Of a stretch of 64,000 bases of DNA, positions 8,262 to 16,685 are shown piece by piece. Each line of letters starts with the position of its first letter. The first letter of the stretch is position 1. The notes under the pieces are model-generated. The model did not search any database. It saw only the letters and a list, made by a program, of their open reading frames with translations, and had not been told where the DNA came from. Origin of the DNA: Phycicoccus sp. CSK15P-2 (GTDB taxonomy: Bacteria > Actinomycetota > Actinomycetes > Actinomycetales > Dermatophilaceae); the NCBI RefSeq assembly GCF_016888005.1, contig NZ_JAFDVE010000003.1, positions 1 through 64,000 of the forward strand, read 5' to 3'. Both the position numbers and the translations under genes were made by a program.

Positions 8262-8277
8262 GAAACCAGCACGAAAC
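8262..8277 (+). promoter_or_regulatory. Candidate GlnR box upstream of Nit1C operon
   Basis: Two GAAAC half-sites (8262-8266 and 8273-8277) are separated by exactly 6 bp. This fits the GnnAC-n6-GnnAC pattern described for the actinobacterial nitrogen regulator GlnR in mycobacteria and closely matches the GTnAC-n6-GaAAC form of Streptomyces. The site lies 22 bp before the ATG of the first operon gene, which is close for an activator unless the transcript is leaderless or nearly so. A third GAAAC lies at 8209-8213 without a good partner. Assignment is by pattern only. Confidence 0.45.
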
Positions 8278-8299: not shown

Positions 8300-9118
8300 A
8301 TGCCGATCCGCGACGGGCACCGTCACATCGGGGTGCTGCCGGAGCACCCCTTCTACGGGGGCCCTCCGGTGCGCGCCGACCTCGGCGCCCGGGCGACGGT
8401 CGACGAGCTCGTCGCCGACCTCGACGCCGACGGCATCGAGCGTGCGCTCGTCCTGCCCAACTACGGGGTGCCCGTCCCGGACGTCGCGTTCGAGCTGAAC
8501 CACCTGGCCCTCGACGCGGCGCAGCGTGACGACCGGATCCGGTGTGGCCTGTGGGTGTCACCGAAGGCCTCGGACCGTCGGCGCAACGACGCTGCCCTCG
8601 CGCTCGCCGCCGAGGACGGCGTCGCCGCGCTCAAGACGAGCTTCCTCCTCGGTGGCAGCCCGACGGACCCCGACTGCGCGGACGAGCTCGACCGGATCTT
8701 CACCACCGCGGCCCGGCTCGGGCTCGTCGTCCACGTCCACACCTCCCCGGGCGCGGCCTCCGACGTCGACCAGGTGGGCACCCTCGTCGAGCGCTACGGG
8801 GACGCGACGAAGATCCACCTCGTCCACCTGGGCGGTGGGATGAGCGGCCACCTGAAGCTCATCGGGGGCCGGTTCTTCGACTGGGTCGAGGCCGGCAAGC
8901 AGGTCTACACCGACACCAGCTGGACGATCGGCTTCGCCCCGCGCTGGCTCGTCGCCGAGATCGAGCGGCGCGGCGTCGGCCACGACCGGGTCCTCTTCGC
9001 GACCGACACCCCCTGGGGCGACTTCGCCGGCGAGCACGCCCGGCTCGCGGCCGCCGCGGGCGACGGTGAGCTGGCCCGCGCCTTCTTCCACGACAACTTC
9101 GCCACGCTCTACGGCTGA
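8300..9118 (+). CDS. Amidohydrolase-2 family metal-dependent hydrolase
   Basis: A 272-residue TIM-barrel hydrolase of the amidohydrolase-related (Amidohydro_2) family. The N-terminal metal motif is DGHRHIG (HxH), followed by LVVHVHTSPG, IHLVHLGGGMSG and the C-terminal VLFATDTPWGDF with the metal-binding Asp; members hydrolyse or decarboxylate small carboxylated or amide substrates. It is the first gene of the rightward Nit1C run, 82 bp before nitB, with a hairpin in that gap. Joint function with the cluster, for example processing an amide or acid released by the nitrilase, is inference. The ATG at 8300 begins right before the HxH strand; no nearer in-frame ATG exists. Confidence 0.82.
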   Translation: MPIRDGHRHIGVLPEHPFYGGPPVRADLGARATVDELVADLDADGIERALVLPNYGVPVPDVAFELNHLALDAAQRDDRIRCGLWVSPKASDRRRNDAALALAAEDGVAALKTSFLLGGSPTDPDCADELDRIFTTAARLGLVVHVHTSPGAASDVDQVGTLVERYGDATKIHLVHLGGGMSGHLKLIGGRFFDWVEAGKQVYTDTSWTIGFAPRWLVAEIERRGVGHDRVLFATDTPWGDFAGEHARLAAAAGDGELARAFFHDNFATLYG

Positions 9119-9126
9119 CCCGCCCG

Positions 9127-9148
9127 GCCCGGCCGGCGACGGCCGGGC
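9127..9148 (+). other. GC-rich hairpin between amidohydrolase and nitB
   Basis: A perfect 9-bp stem, GCCCGGCCG (9127-9135) with CGGCCGGGC (9140-9148), is closed by a GCGA tetraloop of the stable GNRA type. No T-tract follows, so it is more likely an RNA-processing or stability element, or a weak terminator, than a strong terminator. It would allow nitB to be expressed at a different level from the gene before it. Confidence 0.5.
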
Positions 9149-9200
9149 GCCACCCCGACCGCACCCCCGCAGCGCGCACCACACACCAAGGAGAGACACG

Positions 9201-9725
9201 ATGAGCACGTTCGACGACGAGATCATGGCGAACATCGAGAAGTCGGTCGGTGAGATCCCGCACCCCTCGCAGGCCGCCGGCACCAACCTCTACGGCTCGA
9301 CGAAGATCTTCCCCGACTACCAGGCGAGCGAAGGCCAGAGCTACCTCACGCTCGTGCACGGCATCCCGCACGAGAGCTCGGTGAGCTTCGTCGCGGTCCT
9401 CCAGGCCACCCGGGCGCTGCGCAAGGGCTTCGACTCCACCATCTACTTCTACGGCCCGGGGTCGCTGGCGTGCATGGACACCCGCGGCTTCCCGACGACC
9501 GGCGACGTGGCGTTCCCCGGGAACCAGAACATGAACGACTCCATCAAGACCTTCATCGGGGAGGGCGGCACGGTGTTCTGCTGCCGGTTCGGGATGGCGC
9601 TGCACGGCTGCCGCGAGGAGGACCTCATCGAGGGCGTCATCCCCGCGCACCCGCTCGACGTGCAGGACTGCGTCATCCACTTCGCCAACCGGGGCGCCAT
9701 CATCAACTCGGTGTACAACCTCTGA
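9201..9725 (+). CDS. nitB: MSMEG_0572/Sll0783-family nitrogen-starvation protein (NitB)
   Basis: A 174-residue protein matching the MSMEG_0572/Sll0783 family, the hallmark gene of Nit1C clusters. Recognisable blocks are GTNLYGSTKIFPDYQ, YLTLVHGIPHESSVSFVA, the helix LQATRALRKGFDSTIYFYG, the Cys-containing FCCRFGMALHGC and the C-terminal HPLDVQDCVIHFANRGAI. The alternating strand/helix pattern and the late Cys region look DsrE-like (my inference). Its biochemical role is unknown; in cyanobacteria the homologue responds to nitrogen starvation, and in cyanide-growing pseudomonads the cluster is needed for growth on cyanide. A strong AAGGAGAG ribosome site precedes the ATG. Confidence 0.88.
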   Translation: MSTFDDEIMANIEKSVGEIPHPSQAAGTNLYGSTKIFPDYQASEGQSYLTLVHGIPHESSVSFVAVLQATRALRKGFDSTIYFYGPGSLACMDTRGFPTTGDVAFPGNQNMNDSIKTFIGEGGTVFCCRFGMALHGCREEDLIEGVIPAHPLDVQDCVIHFANRGAIINSVYNL

Positions 9726-9736
9726 GGCGGGACGTC

Positions 9737-10801
9737 ATGGCCTCAGCTCCCTCCACCCGGGTCGACGTCGCGATCCAGGGCATCCGTCTGCTCGACGCCC
9801 CGGTCGCCCGACGCGCAGGCGCCGGGCCGAGCGACGACGGGCACCTCCTCCTCGACGGTGTCGGTGCCGCGATCCCGCTCAACCCGCGCAGCCCCTACTC
9901 GGTGCGCGGTGGCCGTCTGCTGCTCGACGGGGCGGACACCGGGATGGGGGTCGAGGCCGTGGCCCGGCCACGCTTCTACGACCTGCGCACCGCGGACGGC
10001 GTGCCGTACGAGCAGATCGCCCGGCTCCACTCCAGCCACGTGCTCGCGACGACGGTCGTGCAGACCTGCGTCCGTTACGAGGAGTCCGAGCGGTGTCGCT
10101 TCTGTGCCATCGAGGAGTCGCTCCGCCAGGGGTCCACGATCGCGGTGAAGACCCCGGCGATGATCGCCGAGGTCGCTCGCGCCGCGGCGGAGCTCGACGG
10201 CGTGACCCAGATGGTCATGACGACCGGGACCTCGAACGGCCGGGACCGGGGTGCGGTGCACCTCGCGCGCTGCGTCCGGGCCGTGCGCGAGGTGCTCCCG
10301 GACCTGCCCGTCCAGGTGCAGTGCGAACCGCCCGCGGACCTGGGTGTCATCGGGGACCTCCACGACGCCGGTGCCCGGTCCATCGGGATCCACGTCGAGT
10401 CGCTCGACGACGAGGTGCGACGCCGGTGGATGCCCGGGAAGGGGTCGGTGTCCCTCGCGGAGTACCGCGCCGCGTGGCGGGAGGCCGTCCGGGTCTTCGG
10501 GCACAACCAGGTCTCGACGTACCTCCTCGTCGGGCTCGGTGAGGACCCCGACGAGCTCGTCGCCGGCGCCGAGGAGCTCATCGACATGGGGGTCTACCCG
10601 TTCGTCGTCCCGTTCCGTCCCCTCGCAGGGACGCTCGCCACCGACGTGGACCGGGTACCGGCCCCGCCGCCGGCCCTCGTCGCCGACGTGACCGTCCGCG
10701 TCGCCGCCGCGCTGCGGGCGGCCGGGATGCTCGGCAGCGACCAGGCCGCCGGATGCGCCGCGTGCGGGGCCTGCTCGGCCCTGTCCTGCGAGGGCGCGTG
10801 A
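9737..10801 (+). CDS. nitD: MSMEG_0568-family radical SAM protein (NitD)
   Basis: A 354-residue radical SAM enzyme of the Nit1C type. The [4Fe-4S]-binding motif is atypical, C111-x8-C120-x2-C123 (CVRYEESERCRFC), instead of Cx3Cx2C. SAM-binding strands follow (QMVMTTGTSNG; VQVQCEPPADL; STYLLVGLGEDP). The last 20 residues are Cys-rich (GCAACGACSALSC), which could bind a second cluster. The reaction is unknown; in the family it is thought to act with the GNAT and AIRS-like proteins encoded next. The gene starts 11 nt after nitB and its TGA overlaps the ATG of the next gene by 1 nt. Confidence 0.88.
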   Translation: MASAPSTRVDVAIQGIRLLDAPVARRAGAGPSDDGHLLLDGVGAAIPLNPRSPYSVRGGRLLLDGADTGMGVEAVARPRFYDLRTADGVPYEQIARLHSSHVLATTVVQTCVRYEESERCRFCAIEESLRQGSTIAVKTPAMIAEVARAAAELDGVTQMVMTTGTSNGRDRGAVHLARCVRAVREVLPDLPVQVQCEPPADLGVIGDLHDAGARSIGIHVESLDDEVRRRWMPGKGSVSLAEYRAAWREAVRVFGHNQVSTYLLVGLGEDPDELVAGAEELIDMGVYPFVVPFRPLAGTLATDVDRVPAPPPALVADVTVRVAAALRAAGMLGSDQAAGCAACGACSALSCEGA

Positions 10802-12243
10802 TGGACCTCCGGTCCGGTGAGACGTCCTCCGGCGACGTCGTCATCGCCGGTCGGCCGGTGCGCACGGTGGCGCCACGCCCGTTCACGATCGGCGAGGCCG
10901 AGGACTCGGCCGGTCTCGCCGCCCACCGCGCGCTGCGCCATCGGGCCTTCGTCGAGGAGCAGCGACTGTTCGCCACCCACGACGTCGACCCGGCCGACGA
11001 GGACCCGCGGACCCGGGTCCTCGTGGCCCGCGTCCCGGACGGGACGGTCGTCGGCGGTGTGCGGGTCCACCCGGCCCTCCCCGGGCCGGACCTCGGATGG
11101 TGGCGAGGCAGCCGGCTCGTCGTCGTCCCCGGGCGCGGCACCGCCGGGGTCGCCGCCGCGCTCGTCACCGCCGCGTGCGCCCTCGCGGAGACGCTCGGTG
11201 CCCTGCGGTTCGACGCGACCGTCCAGGCCCGGAACGAGCGGCTCTTCCGCCGTCTCGGCTGGAGCGCCCGTCAGGCCGTCGAGCTGCACGGACGTCCGCA
11301 CCTCCTGATGGAGTGGCCGGTCGGCAGGGTCCAGCGGCTGGTCGACGCGACCAAGGCACCGCTCGGGCCACTGCTGCGCGAGCTCGGCCGGCATCCTGCG
11401 GCAGGCGGCGGCCCCGGCTTCCGCGGCGACGACGGTGCCCCGGTCCCCGGCACCGCAGCGGGCTCGGGGATGGTCGCCGCCTGCGACGCGATCCTGCCCT
11501 CCATGGTCGAGCGCGACCCGGAGTGGGCCGGGTGGTGCGCCGTCCTCGTCAACCTCAACGACCTCTTCGCGATGGGGGCCCGGCCGGTCGGGCTGCTCGA
11601 CGCCGTCGGTGCCCGGGACGCCAGCTTCGCCCGACGGATCCTTCGCGGGCTCGCCGAGGCCGCCGACGCGTGGGACGTCCCGGTGCTCGGCGGGCACACC
11701 CAGCTCGGGGTGCCGGCGGCGTTGTCGGTCACCGCGCTGGGCCGGACCGACGCGCCCGTGCGCGGTGGCGGAGGCCGTGCGGGGGAGCGGGTGCGGGTCA
11801 CCGCCGACCTGAGCGGCGCCTGGCGGCCGGCCTACCGCGGCACCCAGTGGGACTCCTCGTCGACGCGGAGCCCGGCCCAGCTCCGCCGGCTCGCCGACGT
11901 GGTCCCGGCGCTCGCCCCGACCGCCGCCAAGGACGTGAGCATGAGCGGCCTCGTCGGCACGCTCGGGATGCTCGCCGAGGCCGGCGGGTGCGGTGCGGTC
12001 CTCGACGTCGCCGACGTCCCGACACCGGCCGGTGCCGGCACCGCCGAGTGGCTCACCTGCTTCCCGGGCTTCGCCGTCGTGAGCACCGAGCCCGCCGGCC
12101 ACCGCCCCGACCCGCTGCCCGACCTCGTCACCTCCGCCCGCTGCGGCGAGCTCGTCCCCGGCAACGGTGTCGAGCTGCGCTGGCCGGACGGCCTCACCAC
12201 ACGTGCCGTGGCCTCGACCGTCACGGGGATGGGAGCAGCATGA
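10801..12243 (+). CDS. Fused GNAT acetyltransferase / AIR-synthase-like protein (NitE-NitF)
   Basis: A 480-residue two-domain protein. Residues about 20-180 form a GNAT acetyltransferase fold (RHRAFVEEQRLF; VGGVRVHPAL; SRLVVVPGRG; RNERLFRRLGW). Residues about 210-480 are PurM/AIR-synthase-like, with GSGMVAACDAILPSMVERD, LVNLNDLFAMGARPVGLLDAV, a VLGGHTQLG loop and an ATP-grasp-like C-terminal half. In cyanobacteria and pseudomonads these are two genes (sll0786 and sll0787, nitE and nitF); here, as in MSMEG_0567, they are fused. Substrates are unknown; an ATP-dependent activation coupled to acyl transfer is inference. It overlaps its neighbours by 1 nt (nitD) and 4 nt (nitrilase). Confidence 0.87.
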   Translation: MDLRSGETSSGDVVIAGRPVRTVAPRPFTIGEAEDSAGLAAHRALRHRAFVEEQRLFATHDVDPADEDPRTRVLVARVPDGTVVGGVRVHPALPGPDLGWWRGSRLVVVPGRGTAGVAAALVTAACALAETLGALRFDATVQARNERLFRRLGWSARQAVELHGRPHLLMEWPVGRVQRLVDATKAPLGPLLRELGRHPAAGGGPGFRGDDGAPVPGTAAGSGMVAACDAILPSMVERDPEWAGWCAVLVNLNDLFAMGARPVGLLDAVGARDASFARRILRGLAEAADAWDVPVLGGHTQLGVPAALSVTALGRTDAPVRGGGGRAGERVRVTADLSGAWRPAYRGTQWDSSSTRSPAQLRRLADVVPALAPTAAKDVSMSGLVGTLGMLAEAGGCGAVLDVADVPTPAGAGTAEWLTCFPGFAVVSTEPAGHRPDPLPDLVTSARCGELVPGNGVELRWPDGLTTRAVASTVTGMGAA

Positions 12244-13130
12244 GCACCGACCGGAGCATCGGGGTCGCGGCGGCCGCCGCCCCCTTCGGCCGTGACCTCG
12301 ACGCCTGTCTGGCCCGCGTCCGCGACCTCGTGAGGCGCGCCCGCAGGCAGGACGTGCGGCTGCTCGCCCTGCCCGAGGCATGCCTCGGCGGGTACCTCTC
12401 GGTCCTGGGCCGAGGTCGGGACGGGAGCCACGACGAGACCCCCGAGTCCCTGCCACCGGTCGTCGACCTCGACGGCCCCGTGATGCGCGAGGTGGCGGAG
12501 GCCGCCCGTGAGATGACCGTCGTCGTCGGGTTCTGCGAGTCCGACGGGGTCAGCCGCTACAACAGCGCCGCGGCCGTCACCGGTGACGGGGTGCTGTCCG
12601 TGTACCGCAAGGTGCACCAGCCGCTCGGGGAGGAGCTGAGCTACGACGCGGGCGAGCAGCTCCGCGCCTTCGACTCCCCGGTCGGCCGGATGGGCCTGCA
12701 GATCTGCTACGACAAGGCCTTCCCCGAGTCGGCCAGGGCGCTCGCGCTGGACGGGGCCCGGGTCGTCGCGTGCATCTCGGCCTGGCCGGCGTCCCGCACG
12801 GCGTCCGCCGCCTCGCTCGCCGAAGACCGGTGGACCCGTCGCAACGCCCTCTTCGACCAGGCCCGTGCCCTGGAGAACCAGGTCGTCTGGGTGGCGGCCA
12901 ACCAGACCGGGACGTTCGGGTCGCTGCGCTTCGTCGGCAGTGCCCGGGTCGTCGCTCCCGGTGGGGAGGTCCTCGCCGGCACCGGGGTCGACGCCGGTCT
13001 CGCCGTGGCCCACCTCGACCTGGAGGACGCCCTGCTCACGGCGCGACGGACCATGTTCCACCTCGGCGACCGGCGACCCGAGGTGTACGCCGCGGCGAAC
13101 GAGCGCGTGGCGGAGGTCAGCCGTGCCTGA
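12240..13130 (+). CDS. nitC: Nit1-type nitrilase (NitC)
   Basis: A 296-residue carbon-nitrogen hydrolase with an intact catalytic set: Glu46 in LPEACLGGYL, Lys124 in YRKVHQP and the nucleophile Cys156 in QICYDKAFPE. A further Glu (131/132) after the Lys matches the structural second Glu of the superfamily. The sequence around the triad fits branch-1 nitrilases (sll0784/MSMEG type), converting nitriles, and possibly cyanide-derived adducts, to acid plus ammonia. It overlaps the preceding gene by 4 nt and the following nitG by 8 nt. In known Nit1C systems this is the central hydrolase. The true physiological substrate cannot be read here. Confidence 0.92.
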   Translation: MSTDRSIGVAAAAAPFGRDLDACLARVRDLVRRARRQDVRLLALPEACLGGYLSVLGRGRDGSHDETPESLPPVVDLDGPVMREVAEAAREMTVVVGFCESDGVSRYNSAAAVTGDGVLSVYRKVHQPLGEELSYDAGEQLRAFDSPVGRMGLQICYDKAFPESARALALDGARVVACISAWPASRTASAASLAEDRWTRRNALFDQARALENQVVWVAANQTGTFGSLRFVGSARVVAPGGEVLAGTGVDAGLAVAHLDLEDALLTARRTMFHLGDRRPEVYAAANERVAEVSRA

Positions 13131-13428
13131 GGCGACCGTGACCGTCCGCTGGCCCGACGGTCGGGTCCAGTCCGTGTACTCGCCGAGCCTCGTCGTCCAC
13201 GACCACCTGAGGGCCGGGGCCGGCTACCGGGTGGCCGAGTTCGTCCAGCGCACCCACCTGGCCCTGGACGAGGCGAGCGAGCGGGTCCGGGCCAGGTACG
13301 GCATGGCGTGCACCGCGGCCGCCGCATCCCAGGAGGACGTGCGTGCGGCGGGGTCCCGCCACGACCCGGACGCACGGGTCACGGTCCTCGACATCCAGCC
13401 GCCGCTGCCCGAAGGAGAACCACGATGA
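13123..13428 (+). CDS. nitG: MSMEG_0570-family nitrogen-starvation protein (NitG)
   Basis: A 101-residue protein that follows the MSMEG_0570 pattern: an N-terminal strand pair VTVRWPDGRVQSVYSPSLVV, a YRVAEFVQRTHLALDEASERVRARYG helix block and a short C-terminal strand (ARVTVLDIQPP). Its biochemical role is unknown; it is small enough to be an adaptor or assembly factor. The GTG at 13123 is chosen because it gives the family N-terminus (PEATVTVRWPDG) and overlaps nitC by 8 nt. The stop overlaps the ATG of nitH by 4 nt. Confidence 0.83.
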   Translation: MPEATVTVRWPDGRVQSVYSPSLVVHDHLRAGAGYRVAEFVQRTHLALDEASERVRARYGMACTAAAASQEDVRAAGSRHDPDARVTVLDIQPPLPEGEPR

Positions 13429-14720
13429 GCCCGGACGCACCCGACCACGAGACCGAGGTCGTCGTCGTCGGCGGGGGGCAGGCCGGCCTCGCGGTGAGCT
13501 GGTACCTCACCCGTGACGGGGTCGACCACGTCGTGCTCGAGGCGCACACGGCGACGCACGAGTGGGCCGACACCCGGTGGGACGCCTTCACCCTCGTCAC
13601 GCCGAACTGGCACTGTCGGCTGCCCGGGTACGCCTACGACGGGTCGGACCCCGACGGCTTCATGACCCGCGACGAGGTCGTCGACTGGTTGCGCGGCTAC
13701 CCCGCGACGTTCGGGCCGCCGCTGCGCGAGCACCACCGCGTCGTCGAGATGGTGCCGCGAAGTCCGGGCTACGCGCTCACCGTCGAGACCCCGCAGGGCA
13801 CGAGGACCTGGCACGCCTCCCAGGTCGTCGTCGCCACCGGCGGCTACCACGTGCCGATCGTGCCGGCCTGGGCGCCGGCGCTCGACCCCTCGGTGCTCCA
13901 GGTGCGCTCCGGGGAGTACCGCCGTCCGCAGGCCCTCCCCGAGGGGGCCGTGCTCGTCGTCGGGTCGGGGCAGTCGGGCGCCCAGATCGCCGAGGACCTG
14001 CACCTCGCGGGTCGGCAGGTGCACCTCGCTCTCGGTGACGCCCCCCGGGTCGCCCGCACCTACCGCGGACGGGACTGCATGACGTGGCTCGCCGACATGG
14101 GCCTCTACGACACCCCGGTCGCCTCCTACCCCGGCGGCCTCGCGGCACGGGAGAAGACCAACCACTACGTCACCGGTCGGGACGGCGGCCGGGACATCGA
14201 CCTGCGCGCGTTCGCCCGGGAGGGGATGCGGCTCTACGGGCTCCTCGACTCCGGGTCCGGCATGAGCGTGAGCTTCCGCCCCACCCTGGAGTCCTCGCTC
14301 GACGCCGCGGACGAGGTGTACCGGTCCATCTGCCGCGACATCGACCGGCACATCGACCGGACCGGACTCTCCGCGCCGCCGCCCTCGCAGTACGAGCCGG
14401 TGTGGCGACCCGAGCACGAGCCGACCCGTCTGGACCTCGCGGCCGAGGGAGTCACGAGCGTGGTGTGGGCGATCGGCTACCGCCCGGACTACCGGTGGGT
14501 GCGGGTCGGGGTGTTCGACGGAAGTGGCCGGCCGACGCACGAGCGCGGTGTCACCGGCGCGCGCGGGCTCTACGTCCTCGGGCTGCCCTGGCTCCACACG
14601 TGGGGGTCGGGTCGCTTCCACGGCATCGCACGCGACGCCGAGCACGTCGCCGCTCGGATCCTGGCCCTCCGCTCGCTCCGACGCGGCTCTTCGCTCGCAC
14701 CGGCTCTCGAGGCCGGGTGA
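13425..14720 (+). CDS. nitH: MSMEG_0569-family flavin-dependent oxidoreductase (NitH)
   Basis: A 431-residue flavoprotein resembling class B flavin monooxygenases. An FAD-binding GGGQAGLAVSWYLT lies near residues 13-26 and a second, NAD(P)H-binding Rossmann motif VVGSGQSGAQIAEDL at about 183-197. A conserved GYRPDYRWV/GLPWLHTWGSGRFHG block near the C-terminus is typical of the group. Proposed role: oxidation or oxygenation of a nitrogen compound (cyanide-derived intermediate) before or after the nitrilase step; this is inference from the cluster. A GAAGGAG ribosome site precedes the ATG. The next gene starts after a 1-nt gap. Confidence 0.9.
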   Translation: MSPDAPDHETEVVVVGGGQAGLAVSWYLTRDGVDHVVLEAHTATHEWADTRWDAFTLVTPNWHCRLPGYAYDGSDPDGFMTRDEVVDWLRGYPATFGPPLREHHRVVEMVPRSPGYALTVETPQGTRTWHASQVVVATGGYHVPIVPAWAPALDPSVLQVRSGEYRRPQALPEGAVLVVGSGQSGAQIAEDLHLAGRQVHLALGDAPRVARTYRGRDCMTWLADMGLYDTPVASYPGGLAAREKTNHYVTGRDGGRDIDLRAFAREGMRLYGLLDSGSGMSVSFRPTLESSLDAADEVYRSICRDIDRHIDRTGLSAPPPSQYEPVWRPEHEPTRLDLAAEGVTSVVWAIGYRPDYRWVRVGVFDGSGRPTHERGVTGARGLYVLGLPWLHTWGSGRFHGIARDAEHVAARILALRSLRRGSSLAPALEAG

Positions 14721-14721
14721 C

Positions 14722-15576
14722 GTGACGACGCTGACGCTCGGCGCGGTCGCCGCGAACTTCGGCCGCGACCTCGAGCGGTGCGTCGAGAAGGCGGTCCGGA
14801 TCATGGGCGACGCCCGCAACGCCGGGGTGGGTCTGCTCGTCCTGCCGCACGCCACCCTCGGGGGGTACCTCGGCGACCTCGCCCGGCCGGACCCACGGGC
14901 CCTGCCACCGGCGCTGCCGGAGTCCTCGCCGCAGCTCGAGCGGGTCCGCCGGATGGCGGGCGGGATGGTCGTCTGTCTCGGCTACACCGAGGTCGAGATC
15001 GTCGACGGGGCCGCGACGACGTACAACGCCGCGGTCTGCCTCAGTGGTGATGGCGTGCTGGGACGCCATCGCAAGGTCCACCAGCCGCTCGGCGAGGCCG
15101 AGGCCACCCGCGCCGGTGACGGTTTCACCGCCTTCGACACCCCGGTCGGCCGGATGGGCATGCTCATCGACTACGACAAGACCTTCCCCGAGGCGGCACG
15201 CAGCCTGGCGCTCGACGGTGCGCTCGTCCTCGCCTGTCTCAGCGCGTGGCCGGCGAGCGTCACCGACCGGACCGACCGGCTCTCCCAGGACCGCCAGTCC
15301 CGGCTGTTCGACATCTACGACACCGCCCGGGCCGCGGAGAACCAGGTGGTGTGGGTGTCGTCGAACCAGACCGGGACGATGGGCAGCCTGCGCTTCCTCG
15401 GCCAGGCCAAGATCGTCGGGCCGGGCGGTGACGTGCTCGCCCGCACCCGGAACAAGGGCGGCATGGCGACGGCCCGGATCGACGTCGCGGCCGAGGTCGC
15501 CCGGTCGCGCCGCACGTTGAGCCACCTCGTCGAGCGGGTGCCGTCGGCTTACCGGAACGAGGGGGCGAGGCGGTGA
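14722..15576 (+). CDS. Nitrilase-fold paralogue lacking catalytic Glu and Cys
   Basis: A 284-residue carbon-nitrogen-hydrolase-fold protein clearly paralogous to the nitrilase at 12240-13130 (shared GGYL, RKVHQPLGE, NQVVW, NQTGT, GSLRF). Two of three catalytic residues are replaced: Glu becomes His43 (LPHATLGGYL) and the nucleophile Cys becomes Asp150 (LIDYDKTFPE). Lys118 remains. It should therefore be unable to form the thioimidate intermediate, yet the fold, length and reading frame are intact, so it looks maintained rather than decayed. A structural or regulatory subunit of a mixed nitrilase spiral, or a ligand-binding protein, is plausible. GTG start; its TGA overlaps the glycosyltransferase GTG by 4 nt. 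Confidence 0.88.
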   Translation: MTTLTLGAVAANFGRDLERCVEKAVRIMGDARNAGVGLLVLPHATLGGYLGDLARPDPRALPPALPESSPQLERVRRMAGGMVVCLGYTEVEIVDGAATTYNAAVCLSGDGVLGRHRKVHQPLGEAEATRAGDGFTAFDTPVGRMGMLIDYDKTFPEAARSLALDGALVLACLSAWPASVTDRTDRLSQDRQSRLFDIYDTARAAENQVVWVSSNQTGTMGSLRFLGQAKIVGPGGDVLARTRNKGGMATARIDVAAEVARSRRTLSHLVERVPSAYRNEGARR

Positions 15577-16685
15577 GGGTCGCCCTGCTCACGTACTCGA
15601 CCAAGCCGCGCGGTGGGGTGGTGCACACCCTCGCGCTGGCCGAGAGCCTCGCCGCCCTCGGGGTCGAGGTCGAGGTCTGGACGCTCGGCCGAGGCGGGGA
15701 CGCCGGGTTCTTCCGGCCGGTCGACCCCGCCGTGACCGTCCACGCGGTGCCGTTCCCGGAGCGCGCGGACGAGGACGTCGGGACGCGGATCGTCCGCTCG
15801 ATCCACGTCTTGCGCGACGCGTTCGACCCCGGTCGCTACGACATCGTGCACGCCCAGGACTGCATCAGCGCGAATGCCGCCCTGCCCTGTCTGCGCACGG
15901 TCCACCACCTCGACACCTTCACGACCCCCGAGCTCGCGGCCTGTCACGAGCGGGCCCTCGTGGAGCCGACGCTCCGGATCTGCGTGTCGGCGGCGGTGGC
16001 CGAGGAGGTGCGCAGCGGCTGGGGGCTGGAGCCGGTCGTCATCCCCAACGGGGTCGACGCCGCACGCTTCGCCGCCGGCGCGGACGACCGGCCCGGGCGG
16101 GCACGCTGGGCCGACCGCCTCGGGCCCTACGTGCTCGCCCTCGGCGGGATCGAGCCGCGCAAGGGCAGTGTCGACCTCCTCCGCGCGATGGCGGCGACGC
16201 AGCAGGCCCGTCCCGACGTCCGCCTCGTGTACGCCGGTGGCGAGACACTTTTCGACTACCGCGACTACCGGGTGGAGTTCGACGCCGTGGCCGTGGAGCT
16301 CGGCATCGACGTCGAGGTGCTCGGCGTCATCGACGAGCCGGATCTGCCCGCGCTCGTCGCACAGGCCGAGGCGCTGGGATTCGTCTCGACCAAGGAGGGA
16401 TTCGGGCTCGCGGCGATGGAGGCGCTGGCCGCCGGGGTCCCCGTCGTCGCCCGGGACCTTCCGGTGCTGCGGGAGGTGCTGGGCGAGGCCGTGACGTACG
16501 CGAGGACCCCGGACGACATCGCGGCGCGGCTGCTCGACGCGCTGGAGGGCCGCCACCCCGGACCGCAGCCGGGGCGGGACCTGGCGGCGAGGTTCACCTG
16601 GGCGGCCGCGGCCCGGGCGCACCTGGACCTCTACACCGCCCACCTGGCGCGCGGGACGGAGGGACCGGACGCACGCCGGCGCTGA
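15573..16685 (+). CDS. MSMEG_0565-family glycosyltransferase
   Basis: A 370-residue GT4 glycosyltransferase. The N-terminal domain begins RVALLTYSTKPRGGVVHTLALAE, followed by DIVHAQDCISANA. The C-terminal nucleotide-sugar domain shows LALGGIEPRKGSVDLLRAM and the EX7E motif in STKEGFGLAAMEALAAG. This is the glycosyltransferase that accompanies nitrilase clusters in mycobacteria (MSMEG_0565). Its presence suggests that the product of the cluster is glycosylated, which a pure cyanide-assimilation pathway would not require. GTG start with a 4-nt overlap, so it is the last gene of the operon; the next gene begins 88 bp downstream. Confidence 0.87.
   Translation: MRVALLTYSTKPRGGVVHTLALAESLAALGVEVEVWTLGRGGDAGFFRPVDPAVTVHAVPFPERADEDVGTRIVRSIHVLRDAFDPGRYDIVHAQDCISANAALPCLRTVHHLDTFTTPELAACHERALVEPTLRICVSAAVAEEVRSGWGLEPVVIPNGVDAARFAAGADDRPGRARWADRLGPYVLALGGIEPRKGSVDLLRAMAATQQARPDVRLVYAGGETLFDYRDYRVEFDAVAVELGIDVEVLGVIDEPDLPALVAQAEALGFVSTKEGFGLAAMEALAAGVPVVARDLPVLREVLGEAVTYARTPDDIAARLLDALEGRHPGPQPGRDLAARFTWAAAARAHLDLYTAHLARGTEGPDARRR

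Follow-up and report, generated by a model that had tools for sequence, protein, structure and literature searches.

The 64,000-nucleotide (nt) stretch of Phycicoccus sp. CSK15P-2 analysed here (positions 1 to 64,000 of contig NZ_JAFDVE010000003.1, assembly GCF_016888005.1; referred to as the window) carries a nine-gene operon at 8300-16685 that belongs to the wider gpr/Nit1C family, and comparison with its relatives brings out two patterns. By sequence, NitB, NitD, NitE and NitF are kept across relatives while the part that would release nitrogen is swapped, being a nitrilase, the two nitrilase-family proteins of the window (CN1 and CN2), or AllFGH with carbamate kinase. In addition, the amidohydrolase encoded by the first gene (AMI) and nitrile hydratase exclude each other in one group of relatives and can occupy the same slot. 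The swap of the nitrogen-release part and this exclusion are new, while the gpr/Nit1C family itself is known. The operon is tentatively read, with a confidence a little short of even, as a GlnR-controlled system which may release ammonia from a nitrogen compound via a nitrile-type intermediate, through the action of AMI and of CN1 with CN2. The features of the operon are as follows:

8262..8277, forward strand: putative GlnR-type box, GAAAC-n6-GAAAC, 22 nt 5' of the AMI start
8300..9118, forward strand: AMI, amidohydrolase, 272 amino acids (aa); PF04909, 67.5 bits
9201..9725, forward strand: NitB, 174 aa; TIGR04044, 230.7 bits against a cut-off of 109.85
9737..10801, forward strand: NitD, radical SAM protein, 354 aa; TIGR04043, 508.9 bits against a cut-off of 303.7
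10801..12243, forward strand: NitE-NitF fusion (GNAT plus AIR-synthase-like), 480 aa; TIGR04045, 92.8 against 68.45 bits; TIGR04050, 444.5 against 312.2 bits
12240..13130, forward strand: CN1, catalytic carbon-nitrogen hydrolase, 296 aa; PF00795, 135.2 bits
13123..13428, forward strand: NitG, 101 aa; TIGR04042, 108.1 against 79.85 bits, scored on the 96-aa form starting at 13138
13425..14720, forward strand: NitH, flavin-dependent oxidoreductase, 431 aa; TIGR04046, 628.2 against 498.35 bits
14722..15576, forward strand: CN2, nitrilase-family protein lacking the catalytic Cys, 284 aa; PF00795, 98.2 bits; H-K-E-D
15573..16685, forward strand: GT, MSMEG_0565-family glycosyltransferase, 370 aa; TIGR04047, 448.6 against 259.85 bits

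The co-directional nine-gene run described by a first-pass annotation of this DNA is real, as all nine genes are open and point the same way. Its tight spacing from nitB onward also holds, with gaps of +11 nt (NitB-NitD), -1 (NitD-NitEF), -4 (NitEF-CN1), -8 (CN1-NitG), -4 (NitG-NitH), +1 (NitH-CN2) and -4 (CN2-GT); AMI ends 82 nt before nitB. The start of NitG was placed at the GTG at 13123 because proteobacterial NitG proteins begin alike. In a profile check, NitB, NitD, NitG, NitH, GT and both halves of the NitE-NitF fusion score above the thresholds of the NCBIfam models specific to the cluster, the NitF half passing the fused-form model TIGR04050 and staying below the cut-off of TIGR04049 (184.4 against 321.3). 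In NitD, the CX8CX2C motif is present in 128/128 aligned rows and a C-terminal CX2CX2C in 127/128, making an auxiliary iron-sulfur cluster likely. NitG has a confidently predicted fold (mean predicted local distance difference test score, pLDDT, 91.8) with no fold match in the PDB at E<=0.001.

NitB was detected in 60/394 genomes of the class, 19/396 of the phylum, 8/186 of the family (seven above the cut-off), and 6/24 and 25/249 (22 above) of two further classes, all of these samples overlapping; among the same-genus genomes listed, it is present in the window's own genome only (1/12). Loci were gathered from part of these matches, from the best 80 among 586 relatives (named loci), and from six plasmid loci hand-picked out of 515 plasmid records with NitB-family genes, 374 of which are from Klebsiella. 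The resulting 167 loci, annotated using proteins from the window and from type C as well as nitrilases as tblastn queries, divide into 118 of type B (CN1/CN2, as in the window), 36 of type C, four of type A (nitrilase) and nine that are too short or incomplete; non-redundant by NitB, these become 103, 35, four and nine. Some type-B stretches are cut. The exact order of the window is the commonest one in type B (17/103 non-redundant actinobacterial loci, the window included), followed by two orders without AMI (15/103 and 11/103). This recurrence means that the nine-gene run is not a chance arrangement.

Type A combines NitC with NitB, NitD, NitE, NitF, NitG and NitH (L202, L204, L205, L207). 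Type C, defined by the absence of CN1/CN2, carries NitB, NitD, NitE, NitF and GT together with a CoA-disulfide-reductase-like flavoprotein (CoADR), AllF, AllG and carbamate kinase, and longer stretches often add an ArgH-like lyase, OsmC and a PuuR-like regulator. Independently of that definition, NitG and NitH occur in 0/36 type-C loci; in none of the 167 loci does CN1/CN2 stand together with AllF/AllG/carbamate kinase. The type-C NitB, NitD, NitE and GT proteins tested exceed the cluster's own NCBIfam cut-offs; type-C NitF is the best match of TIGR04049 yet below its cut-off, and AllF is below that of the FdrA model (396.8 against 433). Of 20 type-C genomes searched for AllH, 15 have it on the NitB contig at a distance of no more than 20 kb and four on another contig; in one it was not found. 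An AllH homologue is also encoded in the genome of the window, on a different contig (G000:C17:109874-110194), in the same region as a carbon-nitrogen hydrolase gene (C17:100999). Type C is not confined to actinobacteria, being present with AllF/AllG and GT on a plasmid of the alphaproteobacterium Methylocystis iwaonis (L203, NZ_CP143315.1). A protein of about 227 aa (c20; L074:8317-8997 and 23 other type-C loci) is encoded between NitB and AMI or NitD, and the single representative tested had no Pfam or NCBIfam match.

The exchange of AMI and nitrile hydratase is seen in type C. Once two second stretches from genomes that are already represented (L226, L227), the plasmid L203 and L139 (a cut contig, more likely type B) are taken out, the 36 loci stand for 32 genomes, which were searched genome-wide for AMI (E<=1e-20) and nitrile hydratase alpha (TIGR01323). 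AMI is present in 24 (including G1045, where only part of the gene is present, at the end of a contig), a cluster-linked nitrile hydratase in seven, both in none, and neither in one (G436, 81% complete). The exclusion has a Fisher p of 2.4e-6, or 2.4e-5 when each genus counts once per kind (19 genera with AMI and five with nitrile hydratase, g332 falling in both), neither value being tree-aware. Three AMI-bearing genomes (G213, G227, G1102) have an unlinked nitrile hydratase that diverges from the cluster form; counting these in gives three with both, 21 with AMI only, seven with nitrile hydratase only and one with neither (p 2.6e-4). They were rejected as counter-examples in view of the divergent enzyme and the absence of any other queried cluster gene on those 8-12 kb stretches. 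In the slot after NitB, L089 reads CoADR-NitB-AMI-OsmC, and L096 and L097 read CoADR-NitB-NHb-NHa-OsmC, NHb and NHa being the nitrile hydratase genes; L064/L065 and L112/L119 compare in the same way, so that nitrile hydratase occupies the AMI slot in four loci (L096, L097, L112, L119). Genus g332 has both kinds, with nitrile hydratase in G634 and AMI in G619. Where AMI was found (8/22 genomes in one search, 16/20 in another) it is a single copy, and it shares a contig with NitB in all but G619, where it lies on a contig with PuuR and CoADR. In the literature searched, which left subscription papers mostly outside, no description was found of AMI in this operon, of type C, of the AMI/nitrile-hydratase exchange or of a constant Cys-to-Asp partner.

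AMI belongs to the amidohydrolase superfamily by its PF04909 match, a modelled TIM barrel (pLDDT 95.6) and a set of residues, D5, H7, H9, K112, H145, H147, H176 and D236, that is invariant in 27 rows and includes what we take to be metal ligands. H7, H9, K112, H145/H147, H176 and D236 resemble the bridging-lysine set of dihydroorotase-like enzymes. There is no sequence match in the PDB, and the nearest folds are 2-pyrone-4,6-dicarboxylate hydrolases and ACMSD-type and isoorotate decarboxylases at 14-19% identity. Searched for within NitB-bearing genomes, AMI is present in 46/103 non-redundant type-B loci; in the CN1 tree, 25/31 AMI-less rows form one group (99/95), which fits a single change of habit. 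Rows of this tree for carbon-nitrogen hydrolases of the window's own genome were disregarded, having wrong reading frames and branch lengths of 3-10. The possibility that AMI is an accidental neighbour was rejected, as it recurs, lies behind a GlnR-type box and is also present in type C.

CN1 has the Glu-Lys-Glu-Cys residues of catalytic nitrilase-superfamily members in 116/116 rows, and a catalytic copy is present in 103/103 type-B loci, 78 of which also have a copy with Asp for the catalytic Cys. This second protein, CN2, was counted in 93 relatives, from 96 labelled matches of which one was too short and two (L210, L213) were set aside; the latter are catalytic, occur as single copies and fall together in the tree with CN1-labelled rows from the same family. 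All 93 have Asp in the Cys position (84 D-K-E-D; three H-K-E-D, including the window). The median ratio of nonsynonymous to synonymous substitution (dN/dS) over 2446 pairs is 0.327 for CN2, 0.379 for CN1 and 0.414 for NitH, values that are relative only, being limited to pairs below saturation and uncorrected for base composition. CN2 had been called a dead nitrilase paralogue, which is right for its residues (H-K-E-D against E-K-E-C in CN1) and wrong as regards decay: a decaying pseudogene was rejected because the Cys-to-Asp change is constant and dN/dS is not above that of CN1 or NitH. The simplest reading is that CN2 is a non-catalytic partner, which would form a complex with CN1. In seven loci of a large-genome family (f95; L095, L098, L101, L104, L105, L108, L117), c17, a protein resembling an FAD monooxygenase by a name read from its sequence, stands between CN1 and GT, and CN2, NitG and NitH were not seen.

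A NitC homologue had also been claimed for the operon, and this did not hold up: against the NitC model TIGR04048 (Nit6803), CN1 scores 46.6 bits and CN2 24.2, with a cut-off of 502.6, so that CN1 was rejected as NitC; it is closer to amidases and carbamoyl hydrolases. The window's genome has no NitC match at E<=1e-30, and the cut-off is reached in 0/394 genomes of the class, in a sample of the same size as that in which 60/394 carry NitB. Weaker relatives (E<=1e-30) occur in 40/394; nine of these genomes carry NitB, and none of the nine has the relative on the NitB contig at a distance of 40 kb or less. In L164 (Microbacterium testaceum), a NitC-like nitrilase with 39% identity to proteobacterial NitC is encoded near 16472 on the opposite strand, past the GT gene that closes off a type-B operon. 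As for the origin of the window's operon, its NitB is closest to Nocardioides (92%, against 75% for Janibacter, probably a member of the family to which the window's genome belongs) and its CN1 falls among Nocardioidaceae rows (100/94), which points to horizontal gain.

The box at 8262-8277 differs from the Mycobacterium smegmatis GlnR consensus Gn2AC-n6-GnAACA by G for the last A (PMC3662644). The pattern GNNACN6GNAAC occurs within 300 nt upstream of 23/36 AMI-first type-B operons, compared with 61/4950 random segments of the same loci, an approximate background since these segments are mostly coding. For operons starting with other genes the counts are 7/43 (NitB), 3/10 (NitD), 0/4 (NitH), 1/4 (NitG) and 2/2 (CN1), four of the 103 loci having too little upstream sequence to be included; the looser GNNACN6GNNAC is found before 24/36 AMI-first and 11/43 NitB-first operons and in 459/4950 random segments. 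GlnR control of the operon is probable from its predicted binding site, and the operon is probably switched on by nitrogen starvation.

A nitrilase performs in one step what nitrile hydratase and an amidase perform in two; types A, B and C can therefore be read as alternative routes. Reading reactions and substrate from gene content, order, residues, co-occurrence and slot replacement, the core (NitB, the radical SAM protein NitD and the GNAT/AIRS proteins NitE-F, mostly with GT) would make or handle a nitrile-type carbon-nitrogen intermediate. AMI would then carry out a nitrile-hydratase-like step yielding an amide or ureide, possibly through ring opening of a cyclic form, and CN1, aided by the non-catalytic CN2, would release ammonia from the amide or ureido group. 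In type C, nitrile hydratase or AMI would be followed by AllFGH and carbamate kinase, with ATP saved, while in type A the nitrilase NitC alone would cover both steps. E. coli AllFGH works on a carbamoyl-NH group, converting oxalurate to carbamoyl phosphate and oxamate (PMC11326118). If AllFGH likewise takes a carbamoyl-NH substrate in type C, the intermediate could be an N-cyano compound giving a ureide. Support for this route comes from the core families kept across the three architectures, from the lack of any locus mixing CN1/CN2 with AllF/AllG/carbamate kinase, and from the mutual exclusion of AMI and nitrile hydratase, their shared slot in four loci and the presence of both kinds in one genus. 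It further comes from the affinity of CN1 to amidases and carbamoyl hydrolases and the constant Asp of CN2, from the GlnR-type boxes and the GlnR-dependent homologue of M. smegmatis (PMC6039565, PMC3662644), from AllH near NitB in type C, and from the action of AllFGH on oxalurate (PMC11326118).

Several points weigh against this reading. AMI was not seen in 57/103 type-B loci (some of them cut) and is absent from 8/8 such genomes searched whole (G058, G059, G259, G481, G769, G805, G750, G305), as well as not found in G284, where the contig is cut; nitrile hydratase is present in only one of these nine, G259, at least 49 kb from NitB. With both lacking, either the step would be dispensable or CN1 would itself have to attack the nitrile. 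CN2 was not seen in 25/103 type-B loci, and L203 shows neither AMI nor nitrile hydratase within 18 kb. In three of the seven nitrile-hydratase genomes (G350, G287, G308) the enzyme lies in the cluster beside GT, outside the AMI slot, and the exclusion counts take no account of the tree. NitB, NitG, NitH and GT have no clear role in the proposed route, and we know of no nitrile hydratase in the amidohydrolase superfamily. Lastly, the gpr mutant of M. smegmatis has been described as sensitive to peroxide and defective in nitrogen-dependent biofilm growth (PMC6039565).

That phenotype underlies the view that the main role of the operon is redox, raising NADPH and protecting from peroxide as reported for gpr. 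It rests on deletion and complementation in M. smegmatis, yet the effect could not be assigned to single genes (PMC6039565), and type-C relatives keep the rest of the cluster without NitG or NitH, though with another flavoprotein; we regard this role as improbable. Simple assimilation of cyanide or nitriles through CN1 acting as a nitrilase, along the lines proposed for Pseudomonas, would agree with the complete catalytic residues of CN1 and with the existence of AMI-less loci, and is equally hard to credit given the distance of CN1 from NitC and the want of any genome of the class reaching the NitC cut-off. The doubt voiced in the first-pass annotation about simple cyanide hydrolysis as the purpose is supported.

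A stronger competitor, albeit still an unlikely one, takes up the first-pass annotation and holds that the product of the operon is a nitrogen compound that is glycosylated and acetylated, with AMI, CN1 and nitrile hydratase serving in tailoring or activation and starvation acting only as the trigger. GT, a single named family, is present in 3/4 type-A, 89/103 type-B and 19/35 type-C non-redundant loci, GNAT, AIRS-like and radical SAM proteins are part of the core, and several database entries bear the Gene Ontology note 'biosynthetic process'. The swaps, however, affect nitrogen-release enzymes including carbamate kinase, which is catabolic in E. coli allFGHK (PMC11326118), and GT is missing from 1/4 type-A and 14/103 type-B loci, some of them cut. 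Of comparably low probability is the idea that the mutual exclusion of AMI and nitrile hydratase reflects different substrates in different lineages and not one and the same step. Exclusion alone is no proof of equal function, and L080, L228 and L229 carry nitrile hydratase elsewhere in the cluster; set against this are the four same-slot loci, in which the rest of the cluster is unchanged, and the genus with both kinds. The nitrile-intermediate route can also be put in a bolder form, which we consider doubtful: AMI would be a member of the amidohydrolase superfamily that hydrates nitriles or N-cyano compounds. During nitrogen starvation the core would convert a cellular compound into an intermediate with a nitrile or N-cyano group, AMI or nitrile hydratase would hydrate it, and any of three interchangeable routes would free the carbamoyl nitrogen (a nitrilase; CN1 with a pseudoenzyme as obligate partner; AllFGH and carbamate kinase with ATP recovery). 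To our knowledge, hydration of nitriles or N-cyano compounds is a chemistry of no member of that superfamily.

Nit1C, a cluster known from Pseudomonadota, Cyanobacteria and Actinomycetota, was reportedly described in 2005, and its chemistry is said to have stayed open since. Nitrile hydratase in the place of AMI, and AllFGH/carbamate kinase in that of nitrilase-type enzymes, narrow the search to nitrile-to-carbamoyl nitrogen release, and the swap pattern names the proteins to assay (AMI, and CN1 with and without CN2), making the hidden chemistry testable. It also corrects the view of the operon as a NitC carrier with random extra enzymes.

Within this family, the operon is best filed, on present profiles, as a gpr-type (MSMEG_0565-0572) relative of Nit1C and not as Nit1C in the strict sense, because CN1 fails the NitC model and no genome of the class reaches its cut-off. 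Of its earlier labelling as a Nit1C operon, the kinship and the link to nitrogen starvation stand. The M. smegmatis gpr operon comprises eight GlnR-dependent open reading frames (ORFs), among them MSMEG_0565 and MSMEG_0566, the latter called a putative amidase (PMC6039565), and MSMEG_0572 is listed with a GlnR peak and a 263-fold change (PMC3662644). Counterparts of all eight are present in the window, based on five MSMEG_05xx NCBIfam models, both MSMEG_0567 halves and, for CN1 and CN2, synteny with mycobacterial loci, in which CN2 adjoins GT; MSMEG_0565 is the name-giver of the GT family. GT and the second carbon-nitrogen hydrolase are therefore not additions, as had been supposed along with AMI, which recurs as noted in 46/103 loci. 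Selenocysteine has been proposed for MSMEG_0571 (PMC6039565); CN1 genes end in TGA (99/101) or TAG (2/101), which settles nothing on that proposal.

In comparing the window with the known systems, the gpr operon (PMC6039565) has in common with it GT, a second carbon-nitrogen hydrolase, the fused GNAT-AIRS protein, a radical SAM protein, a flavoprotein, NitG, a nitrilase-like protein, NitB and GlnR control (predicted for the window); it differs in gene order and in that AMI is outside its eight ORFs. While MSMEG_0566 is called a putative amidase there, CN2 of the mycobacterial loci examined, MSMEG_0566 not being among them, lacks the catalytic Cys. Nit1C, tied by Podar in 2005 to a subfamily-1 nitrilase (PMC1199592), and Pseudomonas nitBCDEFGH (PMC11049912) share with the window the families NitB, NitD, NitE, NitF (here through the fused TIGR04050), NitG and NitH. 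Unlike them, the window has no NitC, two carbon-nitrogen hydrolases plus AMI, and NitE fused to NitF; the Nit1C order of hypothetical protein, nitrilase, radical SAM, GNAT, AIRS and NitG is replaced by AMI-NitB-NitD-NitEF-CN1-NitG-NitH-CN2-GT. N-carbamoylputrescine amidase (AguB) and other carbamoyl hydrolases provide the best NCBIfam relative of CN1 and are among its sequence relatives in the PDB, but CN1 is far below the TIGR03381 cut-off (99 against 410.25 bits). E. coli allFGHK (PMC11326118) is matched in the type-C relatives by homologues of AllF, AllG, AllH and carbamate kinase, which there are embedded in a Nit1C-like cluster, whereas the operon of the window does without these genes and has CN1 and CN2 instead.

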